This document shows, in pieces, positions 1 to 18,508 of a DNA stretch of 36,554 nt (positions are counted from its first letter, which is position 1; each line of letters opens with the position of its first letter). A program made the translations under genes and the position numbers. This DNA comes from Nitrospirota bacterium (GTDB lineage: Bacteria; Nitrospirota; Thermodesulfovibrionia; Thermodesulfovibrionales; JdFR-88): assembly GCA_021789555.1 (NCBI GenBank), contig JAJYJK010000021.1:1-36554 (forward strand), given 5' to 3'. Below the pieces are notes generated by a model. That model saw only the letters and a list, made by a program, of their open reading frames with translations, was not told the origin of the DNA and ran no database searches.

Positions 1-58
1 CTCGAAAACCGTTGTGGGGGCGACCCCACCCAGGGTTCGAATCCCTGCCTCTCCGCCA
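1..58 (+). tRNA. tRNA-Ser(CGA), 5' part outside window
   Basis: The window opens inside the anticodon loop. Bases 1-7 read CTCGAAA, giving anticodon CGA at 3-5, followed by the 3' half of the anticodon stem. A class II long variable arm follows (pairing GTGGGG/CCCCAC around 14-29). The T arm has CAGGG at 31-35, TTCGAAT in the loop and CCCTG at 43-47. The acceptor strand CCTCTCC is at 48-54, discriminator G at 55 and an encoded CCA at 56-58. The long variable arm together with CGA identifies serine. The D arm and 5' acceptor strand lie before the window. Confidence 0.93.
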
Positions 59-60
59 TT

Positions 61-459
61 CTAGCAGGACAGGAATTTTTCCCAGAGGCGGTCTTCGTAT
101 TCCTCAAGATACGGGGGGCGGTTCAGCAGGACCCCCAGTTTGGCGAGCTTGAAGTCGAGCTCCCGCAGTTTTTTGAGCCTCTGCTTGTCGTCGTCTATTG
201 AATTTATCAGGTCCCTTAAATTCATGATCTCTTTTTTAAGCTCCACTTCAGGGGGCGCAAATCCGGCATTTTTAAGGACCCGGAAGGCAAGTTTTAAATC
301 CTCGGGGACGAAGCTGTCGTCTTCAAATGAGAGGGGCTTACCCGCGCCGGCCAGGTTTTCAAAGGCGCCCTCGCCCATTGCCTCCTCGATCTTACGTTCA
401 GCTATTTTTGTCAATATATCCAGCAAGCCACTCCACCCATTGGCCGATGCCATCCCCAT
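61..459 (-). CDS. DUF1992 / DnaJ-homologue subfamily C member 28-like domain protein
   Basis: A 132-residue protein carrying the DUF1992 signature: an IAERKIEEAM helix, then GAFENLAGAGKPL, then a charged helical tail with the conserved LNRPPYL segment. The family (E. coli YhdN-like) is short, cytoplasmic and of unknown biochemical role despite the DnaJC28 name; no J domain is present. The reading frame overlaps the 3' end of hypB by about 60 nt if the ATG at 459 is used. A TTG at 426 would start the protein about 8 residues before IAERKI, closer to the usual family start, and would shorten the overlap. It is the last gene of the leftward der-to-hypB run and ends 2 nt from the tRNA-Ser gene, which reads in the opposite direction. 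Confidence 0.85.
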   Translation of the reverse strand: MGMASANGWSGLLDILTKIAERKIEEAMGEGAFENLAGAGKPLSFEDDSFVPEDLKLAFRVLKNAGFAPPEVELKKEIMNLRDLINSIDDDKQRLKKLRELDFKLAKLGVLLNRPPYLEEYEDRLWEKFLSC

Positions 460-1054
460 TCCTGGCCGATACCTCGAAGATGTTGAGCGAGGGGTTTAGA
501 GACAGCGAGTCTTTCCTTATCTTCCCGACATCGACGTCGAGATAGGGTTTCAGATCCATCTTGTTTATTATGAGCGCCCTCGATTCCTGGAACATGAGCG
601 GGTATTTCAGGGGCTTGTCGTCCCCCTCGGCAATCGAAAGGAGCATCACCTTGGCGTCCTCGCCCACGTTGAATTCCGCGGGGCAGACAAGGTTGCCCAC
701 GTTTTCTATTATCAGGAGGCCGATTCCGGCAAGCGGCAGGTCCGGCAGCGCCTCTCTGACCATGTTGGCGTCCAGGTGACAGGCCCCGCCCGTGTTTATC
801 TGCACGACGGGCACGCCCAGCGCCCCTATCCGCTCGGCATCGGACGTCCCCTGGATATCGCCCTCGATGACCGCGACGCGCAGCCCCCTTGCCTCAAGCG
901 CCTTTATCGTGGCCTCTATGAAGGTGGTCTTTCCCGCGCCGGGGGAGGACATTATATTCAGGACGAAGACCCCGCTTTCTTTGAAGAGCGCCTTGTTTTG
1001 CTCCGCGAGCCTCTCATTGGCCTCGAGAATCCGGGTCACTATGTTAACTTTCAT
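398..1054 (-). CDS. hypB: HypB, hydrogenase nickel-incorporation GTPase
   Basis: A 218-residue SIMIBI-class GTPase that, in the known family, works with HypA to deliver Ni to [NiFe]-hydrogenase precursors. Visible motifs are the P loop SSPGAGKTT (residues 36-44), the EGDIQGTSDAERI switch region, the dimer metal site in GGACHLDA (Cys92-His93), ENVGNLVCPAEF, and the NKMDL guanine-specificity motif. The N-terminal CXXCGC high-affinity Ni site and the His-rich stretch of some HypB proteins are absent, so this is the short form. It follows hypA, but no hypC, hypD, hypE, hypF or hydrogenase gene is in the window. Its ATG is the third copy of a 29-bp repeated start region that begins at the hypA stop. 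Confidence 0.96.
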   Translation of the reverse strand: MKVNIVTRILEANERLAEQNKALFKESGVFVLNIMSSPGAGKTTFIEATIKALEARGLRVAVIEGDIQGTSDAERIGALGVPVVQINTGGACHLDANMVREALPDLPLAGIGLLIIENVGNLVCPAEFNVGEDAKVMLLSIAEGDDKPLKYPLMFQESRALIINKMDLKPYLDVDVGKIRKDSLSLNPSLNIFEVSARNGDGIGQWVEWLAGYIDKNS

Positions 1055-1112
1055 AAAACCCTCAACTCGGGGTTAACTTTCATGAGACCCTCAATTCGGG
1101 GTTGACCTTCAC
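1042..1112 (-). repeat. 29-bp tandem repeat duplicating the hypB start region
   Basis: On the minus strand, units 1112-1084 and 1083-1055 are near-identical (about four differences, for example GTGAAGGTC versus ATGAAAGTT). The first 13 nt of a third unit (1054-1042) are the actual hypB start. Each full unit has a start codon, four codons encoding (M/V)KVN, then PELRV and a GAGGGT purine run placed 5-6 nt before the next ATG. Confidence 0.93.
1051..1112 (-). promoter_or_regulatory. Chain of two overlapping 10-codon leader ORFs between hypA and hypB
   Basis: Leader 1 runs from GTG 1112 to TGA 1080 and encodes VKVNPELRVS. Leader 2 runs from ATG 1083 to TGA 1051 and encodes MKVNPELRVL. hypA ends at TGA 1109 inside GTGA; leader 1 ends in ATGA with the leader 2 start; leader 2 ends in ATGA with the hypB start. 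Ribosomes finishing hypA could therefore hand over through each 4-nt overlap to hypB. The reading frames are seen directly; translation and coupling are inferred. Confidence 0.55.
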
Positions 1113-1453
1113 GAGACTTCCATCCCGGTGAGGTCAAGCTCCCTGCCCCTCGTAATATCGAGGCGGCTCCCGGCGCAGGCCGGACACTGGAAGACGAACC
1201 TCTCGTCCGTGGAAAAATCCTCCCCGCAGGAAAGGCAAACACCTCCGACCGGGACCTCATCGATAACCAGGGCGGCCCCGTAAAACGGGGTGCCCGGTTT
1301 TAGGGCCTCGAAGGCGAATTTCAGGGCGTCGGAGACTACGCCTGTCGCCCGGCCGATCCGAAGCGATATGGAGTCCACCCTTTCGTAGCCGGAGCCTTCG
1401 AGTTTCCCGAGCGCGATTTCAAATACGCTTTGCATTATCGAGGCTTCATGCAT
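1109..1453 (-). CDS. hypA: HypA, hydrogenase nickel-insertion accessory protein
   Basis: A 114-residue protein that starts with the invariant MHE (His2 is the Ni ligand in the family). It has a Zn ribbon formed by two CXXC pairs (Cys73/Cys76 and Cys90/Cys93). The length is normal for HypA. It is known to bind Ni and pass it to HypB and the hydrogenase large subunit. The start overlaps the upstream ytxH-like stop by one base (TGATG), so the two are probably translationally coupled. Its stop lies in the GTGA that begins the repeated leader preceding hypB. Confidence 0.96.
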   Translation of the reverse strand: MHEASIMQSVFEIALGKLEGSGYERVDSISLRIGRATGVVSDALKFAFEALKPGTPFYGAALVIDEVPVGGVCLSCGEDFSTDERFVFQCPACAGSRLDITRGRELDLTGMEVS

Positions 1454-18103: not shown

Positions 18104-18508
18104 TTATTTTCTCTGCCTCAACTTGAAAGCCTTCTCGCACTTCTTTGCAGCCTTCTCGCACTTGTTTGCGGCCGTCTCCGCCCGGTTTGCCGCATCCTCG
18201 GCCCGCTTGGCCGCGGACTCCGCCTGGCTTGCGCTGGCGCTCGCGCTGGATTTGGCCTCCTCGGCCATCTTCTTCGCGTCGGCCACGTCATTTTTCAAAT
18301 CGTTGATGGCCGCGTTTTGCACGCCCAGCCTGGAATCCAGGTCGGCCACCTTCTTGTCGAGGTCGTCGAGGCGGCTTTCGACCTTCGCAAGCCTGTCTGA
18401 AAGCGGCTGCACCTGCTGCATCACAAATGTCTTGCTCGCGCAGCCGGTAAGGATAAACAAGAACCCCAGGACCACCACAAACCTCGTAAAAAGAAATCCC
18501 TTCTTCAT
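18104..18508 (-). CDS. Alanine-zipper (Lpp-like) outer-membrane lipoprotein
   Basis: 134 residues from the ATG at 18508, preceded by AAGGAGG with 5-nt spacing; the longer frame has no such site. A lipoprotein signal ends in LTGC. The mature chain is entirely helical: a Leu/Val heptad part (LSDRLAKVESRLDDLDKKV) and then an Ala-rich zipper (AESAAKRAEDAANRAETAAN) ending in Lys-Arg residues. This resembles Lpp/OprI-type trimeric lipoproteins. It carries two unusual NKCEKAAKKCEKAF cysteines near the C-terminus. Structural tethering of the outer membrane is inferred from the L,D-transpeptidase next door. Confidence 0.85.
   Translation of the reverse strand: MKKGFLFTRFVVVLGFLFILTGCASKTFVMQQVQPLSDRLAKVESRLDDLDKKVADLDSRLGVQNAAINDLKNDVADAKKMAEEAKSSASASASQAESAAKRAEDAANRAETAANKCEKAAKKCEKAFKLRQRK

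Follow-up and report, generated by a model that had tools for sequence, protein, structure and literature searches.

The closest precedent for the locus described here is provided by the mycobacterial MIRUs in senX3-regX3. MIRUs are units inserted at start codons, with their ORF being coupled at −4 spacing (review PMC12548453), and the same review attributes the description of the senX3-regX3 MIRUs to Supply et al. (1997). Units at that site measure 77 and 53 bp in CDC1551/H37Rv (PMC4213456), and the number of units varies from one BCG strain to another (PMC9392950). Two further systems are related: termination-reinitiation coupling at ATGA junctions (PMC6728339, PMC10666635) and engineered bicistronic designs (BCD), in which a short leader cistron feeds ribosomes to the next start (PMC5995908; PMC12548453). 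A literature search that combined hypA, hypB, and translational coupling yielded no match.

We analyzed a stretch of 36,554 nucleotides from an uncultured Nitrospirota bacterium, referred to here as the window. On its minus strand, the hypA stop codon, two 10-codon ORFs (mini-ORFs), and hypB are linked via three 4-nt overlaps (GTGA at 1112–1109, ATGA at 1083–1080, and ATGA at 1054–1051) that lie inside a 29-bp tandem array, in agreement with an earlier note on this DNA that had proposed such a series of GTGA/ATGA overlaps. The features are as follows.

hypA: 1109–1453, minus strand; TGA stop at 1111–1109, 3′ end ...GATGGAAGTCTCGTGA (TGMEVS*); from the ORF list and NCBIfam model TIGR00100.
Mini-ORF 1: 1080–1112, minus strand; GTG start at 1112, VKVNPELRVS*, stop at 1082–1080; 4-nt overlap with the hypA stop.
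Mini-ORF 2: 1051–1083, minus strand; ATG start at 1083, MKVNPELRVL*, stop at 1053–1051; 4-nt overlap with mini-ORF 1.
hypB: 398–1054, minus strand; ATG start at 1054, 218 amino acids; 4-nt overlap with mini-ORF 2; TIGR00073.
Repeat copy 1 (read as the original): 1101–1129, minus strand; hypA tail, GTG start, and KVN codons; identical to copy 2 at 19 of 29 positions.
Repeat copy 2: 1072–1100, minus strand; Shine-Dalgarno (SD)–like GAGG, ATG at 1083, and KVN codons; identical to copy 3 at 26 of 29 positions.
Repeat copy 3: 1043–1071, minus strand; SD-like GAGG, ATG at 1054 (the HypB start), and KVN codons.

Among NCBIfam models, HypB matched TIGR00073 (4.7e-81), and HypA matched TIGR00100 slightly below the model cut-off (3.2e-24). 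Given that HypB of relatives begins with MKVxVV(T/S)RIL, as does the protein encoded here, ATG 1054 appears to be the correct HypB start, and the KVN of the mini-ORFs is therefore a copy of the HypB NH2-terminus. The 3′ end of hypB overlaps a downstream DnaJC28/YhdN-like gene (longest frame 61–459) by 62 nt, at window positions 398–459, and the same gene order and overlap were observed at L273 and L276.

In its mode of action the array would resemble a MIRU array, but it does not belong to that class. As in the MIRU case, tandem units lie between two operon genes, the mini-ORFs run in the same direction with −4 overlaps at both ends, and the unit length of 29 is 2 mod 3, as are 77 and 53 (our own arithmetic, this criterion being unpublished). 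MIRUs are dispersed and apparently mobile, whereas the unit here was copied locally from the hypA/hypB junction, occurs at one genomic site, and has ORFs of 10 codons. With ATGA-coupled pairs the locus shares the 4-nt stop/start overlaps, here behind weak SD-like sequences within the preceding ORF, but it has three serial overlaps through two mini-ORFs rather than one between two genes. It resembles BCD in the use of short leader cistrons, although here the relay is natural, tandem, located within an operon, and made by duplication.

Tandem Repeats Finder (TRF) detected a period of 29, with 2.6 copies, 86% match, no indels, and a score of 108, which was the highest in the window. Self-similarity at lag 29 amounted to 40 of 46 matches, with every other lag from 5 to 69 giving fewer than 24. 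The repeated unit with a start, KVN codons, and an SD site that the earlier note had pointed out was thus confirmed, with the SD sites being weak (−6.1 to −6.5 kcal/mol). The array is better read as three copies, with the first consisting of the authentic hypA tail and the ancestral GTG start. The hypA COOH-terminal sequence TGMEVS is also present in hypA of the sister genus (L272), with TGLEVS at L271. Copy 1 carries this conserved tail and stop, and the unit therefore appears to be the native hypA/hypB junction, with copies 2 and 3 derived from it. Counting against duplication, copy 1 is only 62–66% identical to the other copies (19 of 29 positions for copy 2 and 18 of 29 for copy 3). Transitions account for 8 of the 10 and 9 of the 11 differences, respectively, and in the hypA-coding part the purine/pyrimidine class is the same at 15 of 17 positions (shuffle p = 0.002). 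Taken at the level of sequence, the array shows a tandem origin by copying of the junction. A 29-bp segment across the 4-nt hypA/hypB overlap, consisting of 17 nt of hypA ahead of the start codon and the first 12 nt of hypB, would have undergone tandem duplication, followed more recently by a second duplication of one of the derived copies that yielded copies 2 and 3. Replication slippage is the most likely route for both events.

A search of the organism's own genome with up to three mismatches allowed found the unit only as the two copies at the hypA-hypB junction, and a scan of 2.16 Mb of this genome revealed no further match above 21/29. A mobile or dispersed repeat was rejected because these searches found no other copies in the genome. 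The genome is a draft of 108 contigs, and an assembly or sequencing artefact might be suspected for that reason. The copies differ at 3 and at 10–11 of 29 positions, however, with each retaining its start and stop, and assembly stutter was rejected because it would give identical copies. We consider an artefact extremely improbable.

The regularity of the chain follows from the repeat length. In a 4-nt overlap junction, the TGA starts one base inside the start codon. If d nucleotides spanning such a junction are duplicated in tandem, the frame set by the first start coincides with the second TGA only for d = 2 mod 3. The length of 29 fulfils this relation, and reading from the start in each copy therefore gives a 10-codon ORF closed by the TGA that overlaps the start codon of the next copy. 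When one duplication of an ATGA junction was simulated, relays arose in 63% of cases with d = 29 and in 59% with d = 32, and none arose with d = 27, 28, 30, or 31. The three overlaps are one coincidence rather than three, because one ancestral overlap and one length yield them all, and the regular chain is a fortuitous consequence of the repeat length rather than an established means of control. The arithmetic rule for tandem duplications that span an ATGA overlap is that only those with a length of 2 mod 3 produce serial overlaps; no other change in sequence is needed, as long as the new frame is free of stops. The MIRU unit lengths obey this rule as well. The rule is a testable account of which junction duplications might survive.

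Two-reporter experiments in E. coli and H. volcanii have indicated that coupling requires overlaps or very short gaps, that a gap of ~20 nt almost abolishes it, and that 15 nt of upstream coding sequence are sufficient (PMC10666635). The distance from the hypA stop to the HypB start is 54 nt, and direct hand-over from hypA to hypB is therefore unlikely. The three serial 4-nt overlaps fall within the stop-start distance of a termination-reinitiation pair, whereas the 54-nt distance alone does not. An insertion that leaves 54 nt between the hypA stop and the HypB start would otherwise separate HypB from HypA translation, and it may instead have given rise to a relay with three −4 overlaps in series. 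On this view, ribosomes that terminate at hypA would reinitiate stepwise at 1112, 1083, and then 1054.

Pairing energies of the SD sites at starts 1112, 1083, and 1054 were −6.5, −6.1, and −6.1 kcal/mol, respectively. A strong SD has been defined as one below −8.4 kcal/mol (PMC6728339), and the hypB starts of relatives had a median of −10.5 kcal/mol, stronger than all three sites here. Weak SD sites at all three starts could render each reinitiation step inefficient, and some direct initiation would be expected at each of them. Judging from the layout, termination-reinitiation could probably proceed along the relay, and the net outcome is likely a leaky relay together with some direct initiation. 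HypB translation would stay tied, at least in part, to that of HypA, perhaps with a lower output per hypA passage. The frame shift with each unit noted earlier was confirmed. The accompanying claim that the chain works only by termination-reinitiation held in part: this route is the most likely one if hypA ribosomes reach HypB, and initiation directly at 1054 may also occur. Taken as a whole, the locus is in our judgment explained with reasonable probability by a junction duplication that made a relay and left HypB at least partly coupled to HypA. As a putative natural example of chained reinitiation, it could serve for measurement of reinitiation efficiency per step.

The array might, on the other hand, be an inert remnant, with ribosomes loading directly onto the SD of ATG 1054 to make HypB and the mini-ORFs being unused leftovers of a neutral duplication. 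The weakness of the SD at 1054 (−6.1 versus the median of −10.5 kcal/mol) argues against this possibility, and a stop-to-start chain in a translated operon likely catches some terminating ribosomes. Relatives with hypA-hypB gaps of 44 to >300 nt still keep hypB, which favors a remnant in that the overlap is dispensable, as does restriction of the array to one genome. The doubled HypB start pattern was found in 1 of 176 genomes of the order, that is, in this genome only, with the pattern defined as an exact doubled HypB start 8–38 nt apart, such that diverged doublings could escape. We regard an inert remnant as possible though rather unlikely, and continue to prefer a relay with partial coupling.

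None of the 88 hypA-hypB junctions read directly contained a doubled start. Among these 88 distinct junctions, the genes overlap by 1 nt in 19 and by 4 nt in 11, with the others ranging from longer overlaps to long gaps. Within the family, L003 and L112 have a single TGATG (−1) overlap and L007 and L008 a single ATGA (−4) overlap, all without the repeat, and one genus has a 5-nt gap. In the sister genus (g2), hypA stays beside a YtxH-like gene and hypB is present at a separate locus. Two congeners lack hypAB; in one of them (G001), the YtxH-like and DnaJC28-like genes adjoin with no hyp gene between them (L261, G001:C89, 1684–1876). Given that the same-genus genomes lack hypAB, a single-copy ancestor of this lineage is out of view. 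With 0 of the 175 other genomes of the order matching the exact doubled-start pattern and none of the 88 junctions showing a doubling, a conserved regulatory feature was rejected. The comparison of repeat number among relatives that the earlier note had suggested gave no support to a regulatory role. In another genus of the order (L015, L017, L023, and L061), a 45-nt hypA-hypB spacer is conserved in length, and the L017-type spacer contains a 10-codon mini-ORF, ATGCAAAAAATTATCAGGGGGCAAATAAAGTGA, that overlaps the GTG of hypB by 4 nt without a repeat.

The earlier note had also suggested that the array sets the HypA:HypB ratio or changes it with copy number. According to such a scheme, the number of units would set HypA:HypB stoichiometry under selection and vary within populations. 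The presence of three copies, the recent origin of copies 2 and 3 (26/29), and the variation of MIRU copy number between mycobacterial strains at an analogous place (PMC9392950) are in its favor. Confinement of the array to one genome speaks against it, and so do the separate hypA and hypB loci of the sister genus, which indicate that tight stoichiometric coupling is dispensable in the family. Neither ratio setting nor copy-number-dependent change was borne out: one genome alone has the array, relatives that lack the repeat have an intact hypA-hypB pair or, in some cases, the two genes apart, relays through mini-ORFs are about as frequent in this genome as expected by chance, and the divergence can be explained without selection. 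We consider a selected ratio tuner very unlikely.

Retention of the relay is compatible with neutrality. The probability that the relay would be retained by chance was 12% under independent divergence of copies 2 and 3 from copy 1, and 67–76% under a recent second duplication (three differences only), with the latter figure also being in line with an inert remnant. No test therefore favors selection, and the inference of selection from the preserved frame was dropped. We find no support for selection, for control of the ratio, or for switching through copy number, and the locus by itself is of small importance.

We also counted chains of −4 overlaps through mini-ORFs between neighboring genes (ATG or GTG starts) in 2.16 Mb of the 2.85-Mb genome, with shuffled spacers as the null. 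Chains with one intermediate numbered 17, compared with 15.7 expected, and those with two intermediates numbered 2, compared with 2.65 expected; gene pairs <6 nt apart were left unshuffled, so that this null is partly tied to the observed counts. The similar numbers obtained with shuffled spacers ruled out the relay as a statistical anomaly, and the count for two intermediates again fits an inert remnant. By TRF score, the 29-bp array ranked 14th among arrays with a period of 8–120 in the 2.16 Mb.

For the 12 same-strand gene-junction arrays with a TRF score of at least 40, the period was 2 mod 3 in eight, 0 mod 3 in four, and 1 mod 3 in none, a skew that is post hoc and from a small sample; at a score of at least 30 it faded (8/7/4 for 2/0/1 mod 3). 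It is highly doubtful that 2 mod 3 duplications of coupled junctions are tolerated or preferentially kept as a recurrent bacterial route, with copy number thereby becoming a tunable resistance in series with the downstream gene. A second start relay was observed at the junction of FtsX-like and MacB-like permease genes (L188, G000:C76, 14621–14659), where 14-bp tandem units ATGAgTTGAAGGATGAAAGATGAAGGATAAAAGTTGA, of period 2 mod 3, each carry an AGGA-type SD and an NTGA start. Tandem duplications that give NTGA-linked mini-ORFs were also seen after carA (17 bp; L143, 6640–6673), before rsfS (11 bp; L252, 15198–15225), and at a further gene junction (5 bp; L247, 14690–14685, minus strand).

Elsewhere in the window, overlapping 21-bp tandem arrays are present at 18128–18249 (TRF scores of 81 and 61), close to a reading frame that starts from TTG at 18123. 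Positions ~1–59 form a tRNA-like conserved stretch. Window positions 1–127 are identical to the terminal positions 204689–204815 of contig C99 from this assembly, and the two contigs therefore probably adjoin.
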